From NCBI RefSeq assembly GCF_029323795.1, contig NZ_CP119758.1:4464001-4528000 (forward strand): a DNA stretch of 64,000 nucleotides, in the 5' to 3' direction. This DNA is from Zobellia alginiliquefaciens (lineage in GTDB: Bacteria; Bacteroidota; Bacteroidia; Flavobacteriales; Flavobacteriaceae). The notes below the pieces were generated by a model. That model was not told the origin of the DNA. It searched no databases and saw only the letters and a list, made by a program, of their open reading frames with translations. How positions within the stretch are numbered: the stretch's first letter is position 1; the number at the start of each line of letters is the position of its first letter. The translations under genes and the position numbers were made by a program. Of this stretch, positions 12,052 through 21,988 are shown in pieces.

Positions 12052-13287
12052 ATGGATAGTACTTTAGGAATTGCAATAAGTGGATACAATAATTTTTTAC
12101 GTCAGTTCAATAAAGAAAATACAGACGTTATAAATACAACTATATTATTTCAGAATACCCATGTTATAAGAGGGGAGAAGGCCGCGGAACTTTTCTATGA
12201 CCAAGATAAGTTTACTAGGGAAGGGGCGACCCCTGATCGATTCAAAAAAACATTGTTTGGTAAAGGTGGGGTTCAAGGTCTTAACGGAGAAGCGCATGTA
12301 CATCGTAAAAACCTGTTTATGCGTGAAATGACACCGGAATCCATTACTATATTTAAACAACATTTTATTAGAATATGGCACCAGTATCTAGAAAACTGGC
12401 AGAAAACTGAGGAAATTGTACTGTTCAGCGAAATGGAAAAAATTCTGACCGAGGCAGCTTGCTTATGGGTTGGTGTACCATTGCCCGATGAGGAAGTGGA
12501 CTTGAGAGCTGAAGAACTGCATCATATGATCGATGGTGCCGGTGCCCTGGGTACACGGCATTACAAAGGCAAAGCGAGTAGAAAGAAAGCTGAGGATTGG
12601 ATAACGTCTTTGGTAGAAGAAGAACGAAAGAAAGCTCCGGAGAATAATAATCCAGAAAACCAGACCATTTTACAGCGTTTTAGTGAATATAAAGATTTGG
12701 AAGGCAATCTGTTGGATGCCCAAACGGTAAGTGTTGAGTTACTGAACCTAATACGTCCTATTGTAGCGATAGCAAGATACATTGTTTTTATTGGGAAAGC
12801 CGTACACGAAAATCCGCAGTACTTGGAAAGATTACGAAAGAACGAAGATAACTTTCAGTGGCTGTTCGTGCAGGAGGTGAGACGTTTTTACCCATTCTTC
12901 CCCTATACCGCCGCAATAGTAAAAAATACCTTTACTTGGCAGGATACTGAATTTCAAGAAGGTTCTAGGGTATTGTTAGATTTGTATGCTACCAACCACG
13001 ACCCCAAAAGGTGGAACGAACCTTCCGTTTTTAATCCGGACCGTTTTAGTTCGTGGAGTGGTTGCCCTTATGATTTTGTGCCCCAAGGTGGCGGTGACCA
13101 CGAGCATAACCACAGATGTGCCGGCGAATGGGTTACCATAGATATTATGAAGTCCGCTTTGGACTTTTTGGTGAATACCATAGTTTACAGGGTTCCAGAA
13201 CAGAATTTAAATATGAATCTTGCTCGTTTTCCCGCTATCCCGCAAAGTCGCTTTAAAATGACCGAAATATCAAGGAGAGTATCGTAA
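12052..13287 (+). CDS. CYP152-family cytochrome P450 (fatty-acid peroxygenase)
   Basis: 411-residue soluble P450 that closely follows the BS-beta/OleT pattern: Arg235-Pro236 in IRPIVAIARY (carboxylate-binding Arg), QEVRRFYPFFPY (ExxR helix) and the haem Cys356 in HNHRCAGEW after QGGGDHEH. CYP152 enzymes use H2O2 to hydroxylate or decarboxylate fatty acids, with no reductase. At the position where decarboxylating OleT has His85 this protein has Gln75 (GGVQGLNG), as in BS-beta, which favours alpha/beta-hydroxylation. It stands alone, with no reductase or ferredoxin neighbour, consistent with a peroxygenase. Confidence 0.92.
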   Translation: MDSTLGIAISGYNNFLRQFNKENTDVINTTILFQNTHVIRGEKAAELFYDQDKFTREGATPDRFKKTLFGKGGVQGLNGEAHVHRKNLFMREMTPESITIFKQHFIRIWHQYLENWQKTEEIVLFSEMEKILTEAACLWVGVPLPDEEVDLRAEELHHMIDGAGALGTRHYKGKASRKKAEDWITSLVEEERKKAPENNNPENQTILQRFSEYKDLEGNLLDAQTVSVELLNLIRPIVAIARYIVFIGKAVHENPQYLERLRKNEDNFQWLFVQEVRRFYPFFPYTAAIVKNTFTWQDTEFQEGSRVLLDLYATNHDPKRWNEPSVFNPDRFSSWSGCPYDFVPQGGGDHEHNHRCAGEWVTIDIMKSALDFLVNTIVYRVPEQNLNMNLARFPAIPQSRFKMTEISRRVS

Positions 13288-17304: not shown

Positions 17305-19866
17305 TCACTTCTCAACCTCCAACAGCGCTACTGACTCCAGCGCATTTTTAATAACTCTGCTCCAAATGGTATAGCCTTCTTTATTTAAGTGCAAGCCGTC
17401 CGAGAGATAGAGTTCCGGTATGGGCCGGTTGTCACTACTGATCATATGGCTAAATACATTTATAAACTGCGCGTTTAACTCGGAAATCACATATTTAGAC
17501 AACAGTAAATTGGTCTCTATAATCAACGGAATCATCTGTTCCCGTTCCACGCTGGGCTTCAAACTTATAAAAGCCAGTGCCACATCTGGGTATTTGGCTT
17601 TGACCATGCCCACCAATTCGTGGCAATCCGCTAGTACTTCTTGCGGTGTTCTACCTTGGCTTAGGTCGTTCTCACCTGCATAAAGCACAATTTTAGAAGG
17701 ATTTACCTCGGCAAAAATTTCATCAAAATAATGAATGCACCAAGCAAATGTAGAGCCTCCAAAACCAAGGTTCACAGTATGAAAGGGCTGTAAATCCTTC
17801 TGCATGTGTACCCATAAACGTACCGAAGAACTTCCATAAATGGCAATCAGATTTTCTTGGGTCTTCAGTTTTGAAACCCTTCTTTTAAGCCTTTTAATTT
17901 CATTGGCCCACATGGCAGGTGGTTCTTCATTAAGTACCGTGCCACCAGGAGATAGGAATAATTCTTCCGCTCTTTCTCTCGCCTTTTGAACATCAATTGT
18001 ATACTCCGCTTGGTATTGTTGTACAAACGCACGCAAGCCATCCTTGCTTTTTGATGCCACCTTTTCGCTTAATAAAAACGGTTGTCCAATCTTACAGTAA
18101 AACAAGGACCTACCGATTCGGTCATCAAAATTCACAAGAACTATGGGTACTATTAGCGGTTCTTTTTCTTGTGCGGCGGCCAATTTAAAAGCACCCATTT
18201 TAAAAGGACCGGGAGATTCTTCGGTTCGGTAAGACGTGCCTTCTGGACTAATAATTATATTGTAATTATTGTTCAGGTGTTTGGAGGCCTCTTCATAAAA
18301 AATGTTTCGCGCCTGTTTTACATTTTCGGAAGACGTGAGCTCCGAGTCTTTGGTATATACATTTATATGGCCTAAATTGTTGTAATAGTTTTGATGACCA
18401 TATTCCTGTCCGCGGCCAATGCGAACGGTTCTAATACCCGGTTCCCCATATTTTTCGAACAATACCTTAGCACTCAAAAAGTGGGAATCCAAGGTAATTT
18501 GAAAACTGTTGTTTAAGGTGTAGTGGGCATCATTGATTAAATGATTGTAGGTAAAAATATGACCTGCCGTTTCTGGTAGGTTTTCCCATCCTTCAATTAC
18601 ATACGGTACATTTTCAAAGACTTTATTGGTCAATCGGGCACATATTTTCCGATTCAAATCCAGGTCCGTTGTATCCCTTGCCGCTACGTTTGAATAGATT
18701 TCCTGTAATCCGTTTATAAAATTGCTCTCTTTTTGGTCTTCCGTTAGCAACTCCAAACTCAAAGAGGCGATATGTCTTTCCAAAGCAGTGCCATTTTCAA
18801 GCAAAGAGTTCAAAGCATCATAAGCCAGAGCTTTGGTGTTATTGCTTTTTAACAAATGGGGCACTTGGTGCAAAGAAGAAGAAACCGATAAGCGGGATTC
18901 ATTATTTTTGATCAGTTGAAAAACAGCCTGAAGATTATGCTTCCCAAGCAAGCCCACATATCTTATGAATGCTGCGTTCAGCTGGTTGCCCATCAGCCAT
19001 ATTAAACGTTGAAAAAACTGACCTTCGAACTGATCATCTTTTTGGAATAGCTTCATGAGGTCATGGTCATGAATAAAGTAGGCCGAAGTTCGGGTACGCG
19101 TAATGGCAGAACAGCTATCTTTTTGCTTCAGTAGACAAGACCAACCGAATACAAAACCTGAGTTTTTGATGGAACGCTGTTTAATTTCTATTGAATTTTC
19201 AATACGTTTTATGGATACTTCGCCATCGATCAGAATAAATAAGCCATTACTATAACCATCTTGGACATATAGTACTTCGTCCGGCTCGTATTCCCTACGC
19301 TCGGCCAATGTAGCCATAGCGGCCAATTGTTTTTCCTCAAAATAATCTAAAAAAGGGGAACGCCTCATTAACGAAATTACCGCTTCTTTTTCCGCTACGG
19401 GCGAAATATGAAACTTACGGTCTTCCACAAAAGGTTGAAAACGCACCGGATTTAACAGTTCCGATTGCTTTAATAAGGCCGTATGTAAAAGGTGGTATAA
19501 TTTTGAACCTATGTTCTTAAGAAGAATATTTTTATGTCCTTCCTGCAGGTATGTTTCTATCTGCTCAAAAGGAATTTCAAAAAAGACCGCTTTTTCGGAA
19601 GCCACCAATACCTTGTACACATAACGTTTGGGAGGCGTAAAGCCATTAAGTCCCAAAGTTGAAAACGGTTCGGAAGTTTGACAGACCAATATTTCTTTAT
19701 CAGGGTTTTCAATAGAAATGTAATAGGCTATACCACCTTCTAAAAGCCACCTAAACGTGGTTACTTTCTTATGTATGAAACATATGGTATGACCCTTTTC
19801 ATACGTTTCTGTTTTTCCGTTCGGAAACTTTTCCTGCAATTGCGAAATACTGATTTCTTCTTTCAA
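17305..19866 (-). CDS. four-domain cNMP-binding/acyltransferase/SGNH-hydrolase protein
   Basis: 853-residue soluble fusion. Residues ~10-115 and ~165-285 are two cyclic-nucleotide-binding-like beta barrels (VLYVQDGYSNGLFILIDGEVS in the second, split here by position 200-220). Residues ~310-395 are helical. Residues ~420-600 resemble PlsC acyltransferases: N441-H442...D446 (HX3D rather than the usual HX4D) and the EGTS block at 542-545. Residues ~670-853 are an SGNH hydrolase: GSSS at 678-681, GFGGS, N733 in GEND, and D823/H826 in SDGLH. No membrane segment is seen. The start is TTG with no in-frame ATG nearby. A role in nucleotide-controlled lipid acylation/deacylation is inferred. Confidence 0.85.
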   Translation of the reverse strand: MKEEISISQLQEKFPNGKTETYEKGHTICFIHKKVTTFRWLLEGGIAYYISIENPDKEILVCQTSEPFSTLGLNGFTPPKRYVYKVLVASEKAVFFEIPFEQIETYLQEGHKNILLKNIGSKLYHLLHTALLKQSELLNPVRFQPFVEDRKFHISPVAEKEAVISLMRRSPFLDYFEEKQLAAMATLAERREYEPDEVLYVQDGYSNGLFILIDGEVSIKRIENSIEIKQRSIKNSGFVFGWSCLLKQKDSCSAITRTRTSAYFIHDHDLMKLFQKDDQFEGQFFQRLIWLMGNQLNAAFIRYVGLLGKHNLQAVFQLIKNNESRLSVSSSLHQVPHLLKSNNTKALAYDALNSLLENGTALERHIASLSLELLTEDQKESNFINGLQEIYSNVAARDTTDLDLNRKICARLTNKVFENVPYVIEGWENLPETAGHIFTYNHLINDAHYTLNNSFQITLDSHFLSAKVLFEKYGEPGIRTVRIGRGQEYGHQNYYNNLGHINVYTKDSELTSSENVKQARNIFYEEASKHLNNNYNIIISPEGTSYRTEESPGPFKMGAFKLAAAQEKEPLIVPIVLVNFDDRIGRSLFYCKIGQPFLLSEKVASKSKDGLRAFVQQYQAEYTIDVQKARERAEELFLSPGGTVLNEEPPAMWANEIKRLKRRVSKLKTQENLIAIYGSSSVRLWVHMQKDLQPFHTVNLGFGGSTFAWCIHYFDEIFAEVNPSKIVLYAGENDLSQGRTPQEVLADCHELVGMVKAKYPDVALAFISLKPSVEREQMIPLIIETNLLLSKYVISELNAQFINVFSHMISSDNRPIPELYLSDGLHLNKEGYTIWSRVIKNALESVALLEVEK

Positions 19867-20164: not shown

Positions 20165-21019
20165 ATGTTTTATAATTTTCTTCTAGATAAAACTAGAAGG
20201 TTGGTATCCAAAATTTTTTTCGGCTTTAGTTGCTTTTTCTGTCTGTTCTTAGGCCTAAACTCTGCTTTTGGACAAAATGGTGCCAAACTATTAAAAGGAA
20301 AGGTGCAAAACGCAGACAATGAGGTTAGGGACGTATTGGTGATAAACCTAAATTCAAAAGAAACCACAATTACAGATTCCTTAGGCCTATTTTCTATTGA
20401 GGTTAAAAAGGGCGATTTAATCCGGTTTACTGCCATTCAATATCTTACGAAGGATATTAATATTACCGATGCCATTTTAAATCTGAGCTTAGTTACTATA
20501 AACCTTGTTGAGAATGTCATCAATTTAAAGGATGTTACGGTTACCCCGTATAACCTGACAGGAGAAATAAACCGTGATTTAGACCGGTTAGGACTTGAAC
20601 CTTTGGTAACTTCGGGATCATTAGCATTGCCCAATGCAGATTTAGAGGTCATGAGCCAAAGCCAACGACTACTTTTAGAGGCCGATAGAGGTAAGTATAT
20701 TCGTTATTATGGTATTGGACTAATAATAAACACTCATAAAATAATGAACCGATTGTCCGGGAGAACTAAATCATTTGAGGATATGGTTCTTCGTGATGAA
20801 ATTATGGATATGGAAAGAGAGGTCATTACTAAATTCTCAAAGAAAACCCTAGCCGAAAGTTTTGATATCCCCGAAGCAAATGTTGATGGATTTCTAACCT
20901 ATTGTATGTCGCAAAACGATTTCACTTCATTGTCAGAAACGGCAAATACAACAGAGATTTGGGCATATTTAGAAGAGCGAAGTATTGAGTTCAAAGAAAA
21001 TGAATTCGCAAAAAAGTAG
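20165..21019 (+). CDS. exported carboxypeptidase-regulatory-like domain protein (tandem copy 1)
   Basis: 284 residues with a signal peptide (FFGFSCFFCLFLGLNSAFG). Residues ~42-120 form a CarboxypepD_reg-like beta sandwich (KLLKGKVQNADNEVRDVLVI, TTITDSLGLFSIEVKKGD), a fold common in Bacteroidota surface proteins and TonB-linked systems. The remaining helical part ends in a conserved block (DGFLTYCMSQNDFTSLSET). No catalytic motif is seen. The next gene is a clear paralogue with the same layout. Probably periplasmic; function unknown. Confidence 0.8.
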   Translation: MFYNFLLDKTRRLVSKIFFGFSCFFCLFLGLNSAFGQNGAKLLKGKVQNADNEVRDVLVINLNSKETTITDSLGLFSIEVKKGDLIRFTAIQYLTKDINITDAILNLSLVTINLVENVINLKDVTVTPYNLTGEINRDLDRLGLEPLVTSGSLALPNADLEVMSQSQRLLLEADRGKYIRYYGIGLIINTHKIMNRLSGRTKSFEDMVLRDEIMDMEREVITKFSKKTLAESFDIPEANVDGFLTYCMSQNDFTSLSETANTTEIWAYLEERSIEFKENEFAKK

Positions 21020-21118: not shown

Positions 21119-21988
21119 ATGTCTGTATGTAAACCCTATTTTGGAATTAGTTGTTTTTTATTCATTTTGTTAAATACACATTCTTGCTTTTCACAAGTCA
21201 ATACTAAATTACTCAAGGGTAAAATTCAAAATTTTGAGAATGAAGTTAGAGATGTTGTGGTTATGAACCTTAATTCTAAGAAAACCACAATTACGGATTC
21301 TTTAGGTCAATTTTCAATTGAGGTAAAATTGGGTGATTTACTAAGGGTAACAGCCGTTCAATACCTTACGAAGGATATTAATATTACCGATGCCATTTTA
21401 AGTCTGAGCTTAGTTACTATAAACCTAGTTGAGAATGTCATTAATTTAAAGGATGTAACGGTTACCCCATATAACTTAACTGGGCGAATAGATCAGGATT
21501 TAGACCGACTAAGTCTAGACCCTATACTCACTTCTAAAACGTTGGGTTTGCCCAATGCGAATTTAAAAGTTCTGTCTCATTATGAAAGACAACTTCTAGT
21601 AGCGGACAGGGGCACATATGCAAGATTGATGACTATAGAAGAGATGATGAAAGATGATAAAATCTTATTGGGGTTCTTTAAAATTGGTGCTGTAGTTAAT
21701 ACGGATAAGATTTTCAATAGAATTTCCGGTAAAACCAATTTATTGGAAACTATGGTGAAAGGAGATGTAAATACAGAGATGGAAAAGAAAATTCTTGCTA
21801 ATTTTTCGAAGGAAACAATGGCTGAAAGTTTCAATATCCCCGAAAGTAATATTAATGGTTTTCTCACCTATTGTATGTCGCAAAACGATTTCACTACATT
21901 ATCAGAAACGGCAAATACAACAGAGATTTGGAAATATTTAGAAAAGCGAAGTGTTGAGTTTATAGCAAGTGAAATAGTAAAGGAGTAG
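21119..21988 (+). CDS. exported carboxypeptidase-regulatory-like domain protein (tandem copy 2)
   Basis: 289-residue paralogue of the preceding gene. The N-terminal domain is very similar (AVQYLTKDINITDAILSL is nearly unchanged from copy 1), as is the C-terminal block (NGFLTYCMSQNDFTTLSET). The middle differs, with a short insertion around residues 163-180 (RLMTIEEMMKDDKILLGFF). Signal peptide present (FGISCFLFILLNTHSCFS). The pair looks like a recent duplication followed by divergence of the central region. Function unknown. Confidence 0.8.
   Translation: MSVCKPYFGISCFLFILLNTHSCFSQVNTKLLKGKIQNFENEVRDVVVMNLNSKKTTITDSLGQFSIEVKLGDLLRVTAVQYLTKDINITDAILSLSLVTINLVENVINLKDVTVTPYNLTGRIDQDLDRLSLDPILTSKTLGLPNANLKVLSHYERQLLVADRGTYARLMTIEEMMKDDKILLGFFKIGAVVNTDKIFNRISGKTNLLETMVKGDVNTEMEKKILANFSKETMAESFNIPESNINGFLTYCMSQNDFTTLSETANTTEIWKYLEKRSVEFIASEIVKE

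Follow-up and report, generated by a model that had tools for sequence, protein, structure and literature searches.

The 64,000-nucleotide stretch of DNA analysed here (the window) comes from Zobellia alginiliquefaciens and covers positions 4,464,001-4,528,000 of a genome that consists of a single 5.07 Mb contig. At 17305-19866 of the window the minus strand encodes an 853-residue protein, in which two consecutive domains with the fold of cyclic-nucleotide-monophosphate (cNMP) binding proteins are followed by a PlsC-like acyltransferase (AT) domain and an SGNH hydrolase domain. The reading frame starts with a TTG codon at 19866 and its stop codon ends at 17305. Frame 1 of the plus strand contains stops throughout the same interval. 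The nearest listed open reading frames (ORFs) are on the plus strand on both sides of the gene, at 203 and 298 bases.

Domain architecture of the protein

The single ORF and the order of its domains had been proposed in an initial annotation of this DNA made from the letters alone. Both are borne out, the ORF on the minus strand and the domain order by Pfam, AlphaFold2 (AF2), Foldseek and 26 orthologues. The first cNMP-binding-fold domain with its helices (residues 1-135; 19462-19866) is predicted by AF2, with Foldseek matches of the whole model to tandem cyclic-nucleotide-binding proteins; the model contains a beta-roll at residues 18-99 and helices up to residue 135. The second (residues 160-305; 18952-19389), with a predicted beta-roll at 189-266, is identified by PF00027, by profile matches in the PDB and by residue counts. 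Pfam cNMP_binding (PF00027) matches the protein in two stretches with 47.9 bits against a cut-off of 27.5, the best stretch being 190-277. The helices then continue to about residue 395, and those at 311-395 make up a helical linker (residues 306-395; 18682-18951) without a Pfam match.

The AT domain (residues 396-640; 17947-18681) corresponds to an alpha/beta domain that extends to about residue 638 in the model, and its assignment as PlsC/GPAT-type is based on PF01553, hhalign, Foldseek and residue invariance. The last alpha/beta domain, from about residue 652, is the SGNH/GDSL hydrolase domain (residues 650-853; 17308-17919), which is recognized by Lipase_GDSL_2 (PF13472, 42.4 bits against a cut-off of 32.9), by PDB matches and by residue counts. 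All three Pfam families were matched in each of the 26 orthologues scanned (E up to 1). The AF2 model of the whole protein has a mean predicted local distance difference test score (pLDDT) of 79.7 and a predicted template-modelling score (pTM) of 0.63. The protein is apparently soluble, as no hydrophobic N-terminus is seen by eye.

The acyltransferase and hydrolase domains

The AT domain has a predicted PlsC fold and belongs with the lysophospholipid acyltransferase (LPLAT) superfamily. It scores above the curated cut-off of Pfam Acyltransferase (PF01553, 27.2 against 23 bits), the best stretch covering only profile positions 74-131, and it aligns by hhalign to PlsC-like proteins of its own genome (probability 93.9, E 1.6e-7). 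When the AF2 model of the AT domain alone (251 residues, mean pLDDT 76.8, pTM 0.82) is submitted to Foldseek, the top three PDB matches are PlsC (5kym, E 1.4e-6), a plastid glycerol-3-phosphate acyltransferase (GPAT; 8ia1, E 5.6e-6) and human GPAT1 (8e4y, E 2.8e-5). The 1-acylglycerol-3-phosphate acyltransferase (PlsC) family TIGR00530 gives 23.7 bits, below its cut-off of 102.95 bits.

The catalytic box I of this domain is unusual. The initial annotation read ACYLTRANSFERASE as an altered HX3D box, in which H442 would pair with D446. Position 446 is Asp in 24, His in 15 and Asn in one of the 40 long forms (the window protein and its orthologues), and it is His in all ten homologues of a short form that lacks the sensor domains. 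HX3D as the catalytic pair is rejected on conservation, since D446 is variable and the invariant Asp is D460, 18 residues past H442. The H+5 position is occupied by six different residues among the 40 orthologues, and neither H+4 nor H+5 holds a conserved Asp. H442, N445 and D460 are unchanged in the 40 long and the ten short forms, and E542 and G543 are invariant in all 50; within the orthologues the complete 541-PEG-543 motif is invariant together with H442 and D460.

In PlsC-type folds the box strand leads into a helix whose N-terminal end carries the Asp of the HX4D box. D460 heads this helix in the two AF2 models (helix 459-473, or 64-78 in the numbering of the AT-only model). Box I may therefore be interrupted by some 13 inserted residues, with H442 and D460 forming the putative pair (residues 442-460; 18487-18543). 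The loop residues 451-455 have a pLDDT under 50 in the AT-only model. The alignment made by hhalign puts the 'FLSAKVL' stretch elsewhere, on the strand behind the helix, which disagrees with the order in the AF2 models. The AF2 order is tentatively weighed above this placement because D460 is invariant.

The statement that all motifs of an acyltransferase are present proved too strong in another respect, as the block II Arg is replaced in all forms. At its site all 40 long forms have T505, and the ten short ones have Ser or Ala; the Arg is kept in all five aligned acyltransferases of the same genome (five of seven other loci). This Arg contacts the phosphate in glycerol-phosphate acyltransferases, and its absence from all 50 proteins fits a non-phosphorylated acceptor.

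The motifs of the SGNH esterase are complete, as initially described: S679, G704, N733, D823 and H826, which provide the Ser, Gly, Asn and Asp-His, are invariant in all 40 long and all ten short forms. Together with the invariant residues of the AT domain, this suggests that both sites are kept under selection. The best natural matches of the domain in the PDB are GDSL hydrolases, among them 4iyj, the sialate O-acetylesterase 6njc and 1fxw, a platelet-activating-factor acetylhydrolase subunit (E 1.8e-5), and the PDB relatives are mostly named hydrolases or esterases, designed proteins aside. When 69 SGNH domains are placed in a tree, for which the program warns of long branches, the 40 long forms fall on one side of a branch with support 100/99 and the ten short forms on one side of a branch with support 97/90. 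Both fusion groups are separate from the 19 stand-alone SGNH proteins in this tree.

Stand-alone relatives (L002, L008) share 24-37% identity and all catalytic residues with the fusion but have no AT domain, and L002 begins with a signal-like stretch, by eye, which the fusion does not. The L002 gene (745-2265 of its locus, about 600 kb away in the same genome) is located beside an alpha/beta hydrolase gene with BD-FAE and Abhydrolase_3 matches, a neighbourhood that suggests carbohydrate-ester work. Elsewhere in the order, in another family, the SGNH relatives form the N-terminal part of longer proteins (genome G1020, L199 1904-3499); many of these frames are about 520-570 residues long and continue into a C-terminal part.

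Distribution, the short form and the trehalose genes

All 39 related loci, which are from Flavobacteriaceae, carry nearly the whole protein with 57-92% identity, and a chance or artefactual fusion is thereby ruled out. The long form is present in Zobellia, Maribacter, Muricauda/Allomuricauda/Flagellimonas, Leeuwenhoekiella, Kriegella and an isolate labelled Aquimarina, among others. The nearest named orthologues are those of Zobellia uliginosa (92%) and Z. barbeyronii (89%). Within the genus, five of nine genomes, including the present one, have the long form; the other four match over the SGNH part only.

The fusion had been described as uncommon, and the profile searches agree. The AT profile has one strong match among 395 genomes across the phylum, in the genome of the window itself, and no other match there exceeds 33 bits. 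Among 397 Flavobacteriaceae genomes there are 20 strong carriers (over 100 bits): nine of the long form, ten of the short form and one with a broken copy (G027). In the broken copy (L011 1459-2238) the box I part and the SGNH end are in separate frames and a large middle part is gone. An order-wide search with an AT-SGNH profile (E 1e-30) matched 71 of 336 genomes, counting the present one. Apart from that of the window gene, no listed match begins before profile position 211 and only one begins before 256; these matches are to the SGNH part. Locus L198, which has no complete frame of 200 residues, was set aside.

The short form is 451-467 residues long and is found in assemblies of 1.3-2.0 Mb. 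All ten copies match Acyltransferase and Lipase_GDSL_2 (13 of 13 aligned rows, E up to 1), and in one of them (L118) PF01553 covers profile positions 2 to 131. Six of the ten genes (G577, G601, G746, G764, G564 and G486, from four genera) are located directly 3' of an OtsAB gene on the same strand, four with overlaps (4, 4, 4 and 8 nt) and two with gaps of 3 and 5 nt. The neighbouring gene encodes 733-773 residues. Where it was scanned (L166 and L168), it combines GT20 and trehalose-phosphatase domains, which identifies it as OtsAB, and its other neighbour is a divergent GH15/TREH_N gene; the other four were recognized because they align with the L166 protein over 732-738 residues at 65-78% identity. 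The GH15-OtsAB pair is general: the genome of the window has it (L171), and so do other genomes, whether or not they carry the AT-SGNH gene. A single event, kept in four genera, may account for the adjacency of the short gene to OtsAB.

Other small genes are found at these loci. Members of one small ORF family are located directly 3' of the short gene in G592 and G759 (L161 3981-4472 and L169 6125-6631) and near OtsAB in G601 (L164 397-891); the former are 47-51% identical to the L164 copy, and the L161 copy has no Pfam match. A further small gene adjoins OtsAB or lies close to it in flavobacteria with small genomes (L181 7740-8162, L185 1751-2158, L162 7461-7880). The one in L162 is cytidylyltransferase-like (PF01467), and those in L181 and L185 are similar by eye.

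The association with trehalose synthesis is also seen at the level of genomes. OtsA, scored as present when PF00982 exceeds its cut-off in 397 family genomes (apparently the same draw as in the AT-profile search), occurs in 131 of them. It is present in all nine carriers of the long form, in nine of ten carriers of the short form and in the genome with the broken copy. Thus, 18 of the 19 genomes with an intact AT-SGNH protein have OtsA, versus 131/397 overall (Fisher p 1.3e-8). By genus, the figures are 13/13 for carrier genera versus 83/237 genera with any OtsA match (p 6e-7). As relatedness inflates such co-occurrence, it is the short forms and the adjacency that carry the weight. A comparison among small genomes (9/10 versus 3/27), confined to the listed genomes, is biased and is not relied on.

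Around the gene in the window, a P450-like protein, by eye, is encoded about 4 kb away at 12052-13287; it is perhaps of the fatty-acid peroxygenase type. Upstream of the gene, 20165-21019 and 21119-21988 encode adjacent, similar proteins of secreted type, by eye, apparently a tandem duplication.

Proposed function and comparison with known systems

By combining these observations, it is possible to describe tentatively what the protein might do. The description that we favour, with a confidence somewhat short of even, is that of a self-contained enzyme that both acylates and deacylates a trehalose-linked sugar ester or glycolipid. The PlsC/GPAT-like domain would transfer an acyl chain from acyl-ACP (acyl carrier protein) or acyl-CoA onto an acceptor, and the SGNH domain joined to it would strip acyl chains from the same class of molecule. 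Trehalose, or a glycolipid or sugar ester derived from it, would be the most likely acceptor. The enzyme pair of the long form would stand behind a tandem cNMP-fold sensor, and in the short form control would be exerted through the predicted trehalose operon instead. A sugar-type acceptor, with trehalose as the first candidate, is favoured by the adjacency to OtsAB, by the co-occurrence and by the loss of the block II Arg. A lipoprotein acyl substrate, as suggested initially, found no support, and the short-form neighbourhood and the co-occurrence point to trehalose.

Several observations weigh against this description. The acyltransferase activity itself is uncertain because box I is unusual. 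Four of the ten short loci are not beside OtsAB: it is on another contig in G592, G656 and G688 and was not found in G759, the short-form carrier without an OtsA match. AT-SGNH-negative genomes of long-form genera (G005, G008, G559, G637 and G760) are OtsA-positive, which makes the co-occurrence of the long form weak evidence. The enzyme is not needed to make trehalose, as 113 of the 131 OtsA genomes have no intact copy; among these are the small genomes G596, G737 and G588, which have OtsAB and no AT-SGNH match. Finally, neither OtsAB nor GH15 was found in any of the 40 long-form neighbourhoods (about 6 kb on each side, shorter in L042), and the long form has no conserved neighbour there, the most common cluster being found at 14 of the 40 loci.

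A more far-reaching proposal is possible but doubtful. The proteins might constitute a new class of acyl-cycle enzymes, in which an SGNH domain and a PlsC-type domain whose box I is split act on trehalose or a trehalose lipid, and which exists in an operon form beside OtsAB and in an allosteric form with a tandem sensor for a ligand other than cAMP. If this is true, acyl-trehalose lipids or esters would be present in Bacteroidota.

The main rival of trehalose acylation is phospholipid remodelling. The protein would then perform a Lands cycle on its own: the SGNH domain would deacylate aminolipids or (lyso)phospholipids of the membrane, which the LPLAT-like domain would reacylate, so that acyl chains are re-tailored, the trehalose link reflecting shared osmotic or cold stress regulation and not the substrate. 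We consider this unlikely. It stays in play because of the likeness of the AT fold to PlsC and the GPATs, which are its closest Foldseek matches, and because the SGNH relatives include enzymes acting on lipid esters, such as 1fxw. The PlaF paper (PMC9132575) calls the pathway of acyl remodelling in bacteria unknown and its acyltransferase unidentified. However, the block II Arg is gone from all 50 proteins, the short form adjoins sugar synthesis genes and, as the long form has no conserved neighbour, nothing in its surroundings points to phospholipids.

It is improbable that only one of the two domains works. In this case the AT domain would be a pseudo-enzyme, degenerate but able to bind lipid, and would bring the SGNH esterase to its substrate. 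Such a role could explain a box I unlike HX4D, the loss of the block II Arg and the PF01553 match to the second half only in the window protein. The invariance of H442, D460, E542 and G543 and the nearly full PF01553 match of the short form L118 argue against it.

The gating proposed in the initial annotation, by cAMP or cGMP with a logic like that of mycobacterial Pat, is quite improbable. It would agree with the Foldseek result for the whole model, as nearly all of the 50 listed matches are proteins with tandem cyclic-nucleotide-binding (CNB) domains, PKA-R, PKG and Epac2 among them (best E 1.5e-13 over 281 columns). Three matches to PF00211 (class III cyclase) in the genome suggest that cyclic nucleotides may exist in the cell. 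The TM-score to the target is at most 0.42 among the matches listed, so the two domains are arranged differently from those of the tandem CNB proteins. The first domain is predicted from structure, and its sequence profile reaches a best E of only 0.12 against the PDB, which is not significant, with 23 of the 25 listed chains bearing CRP/FNR-type or cNMP names. The second is indicated by both sequence and structure, its profile matching 18 chains with E from 8.1e-6 to 9.5e-3. An origin of the two domains by tandem duplication is not supported (hhalign probability 0.5%). A match of residues 162-283 to the family 2B encapsulin model NF041163 scores 19.7 bits, far below the cut-off of 400.

In cAMP receptors such as CRP, the phosphate-binding cassette uses one Glu and one Arg. 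When the two domains were placed by hand on the CRP cassette, neither domain had both: W242 and C252, invariant in all 40 long forms, occupy the Glu and Arg places of the second domain, and the first keeps R81 (26/26) but has the hydrophobic L73 at the Glu place. The genome contains 20 cNMP-fold matches. In the 17 others that were aligned, a canonical cassette is not seen by eye either, and the fold by itself is therefore a poor guide to the ligand. Cyclic-nucleotide control is thus not supported; judged by its residues, the module is not built like a standard cyclic-nucleotide receptor, and the ligand of the tandem sensor is probably not canonical cAMP.

Least probable is a relay, in which the PlsC-like domain loads or supplies an acyl chain and the SGNH domain passes it on as a transferase: the strict pairing of the two domains in both forms and the precedent of SGNH-fold transferases in OatA-type proteins would allow it, but the partners in OatA are membrane AT3 domains, none of which was matched here, and the SGNH domain resembles mostly hydrolases and esterases.

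The fusion touches on a question that is described as open in the PlaF paper (PMC9132575, 2022), namely how acyl chains are swapped on finished bacterial lipids; there, PlaF had been found and its partner acyltransferase had not. With both halves in a single chain, this question could be addressed with a single purified protein and a single deletion strain. Trehalose as the acceptor would suggest that marine Flavobacteriaceae carry out acyl-trehalose chemistry. The occurrence of the same enzyme pair with and without the tandem sensor amounts to a natural experiment on the addition of allosteric control.

The component families of the protein are known. In the literature searched, judged by title and the start of the abstract, this fusion, the split box and the link to trehalose were not met. 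The invariant His and the PEG motif are shared with the PlsC/LPLAT acyltransferases (5kym, 8ia1, 8e4y), as are the Foldseek and hhalign matches, and the order of strands and helices in the AT model is like that of the PlsC fold. Unlike these enzymes, the window protein has a putative split box I, lacks the block II Arg and is fused to an SGNH domain. In OatA-type proteins an acyltransferase is likewise joined to an SGNH domain, but it is a membrane AT3 domain and not PlsC-type; no AT3 match was listed in the Pfam scans of the window protein, the orthologues or the short forms.

Domains of the cNMP fold are joined to enzymes of acyl chemistry in other proteins as well. Mycobacterial Pat combines a cNMP domain with an acyl-transferring domain, as here, its catalytic domain being a GNAT protein acetyltransferase; the Pat family model ActPatMycb56 (NCBIfam) gives 11.9 bits against 460, over the cNMP stretch only. 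In neuropathy target esterase (PNPLA6), cNMP-fold domains are located ahead of a lipid esterase, as in the window protein, but the esterase is a patatin domain and there is no acyltransferase; no patatin match was listed for the window protein at E up to 10. The tandem CNB regulators PKA-R, PKG and Epac2 have two consecutive cNMP-fold domains, like the N-terminal part of the window protein. The latter differs from them in being joined to lipid-type enzymes, in lacking the canonical contacts and in superposing poorly. Among these regulators, the kinetoplastid PKA-R (6ftf, 6flo) is a tandem CNB protein that is independent of cAMP.

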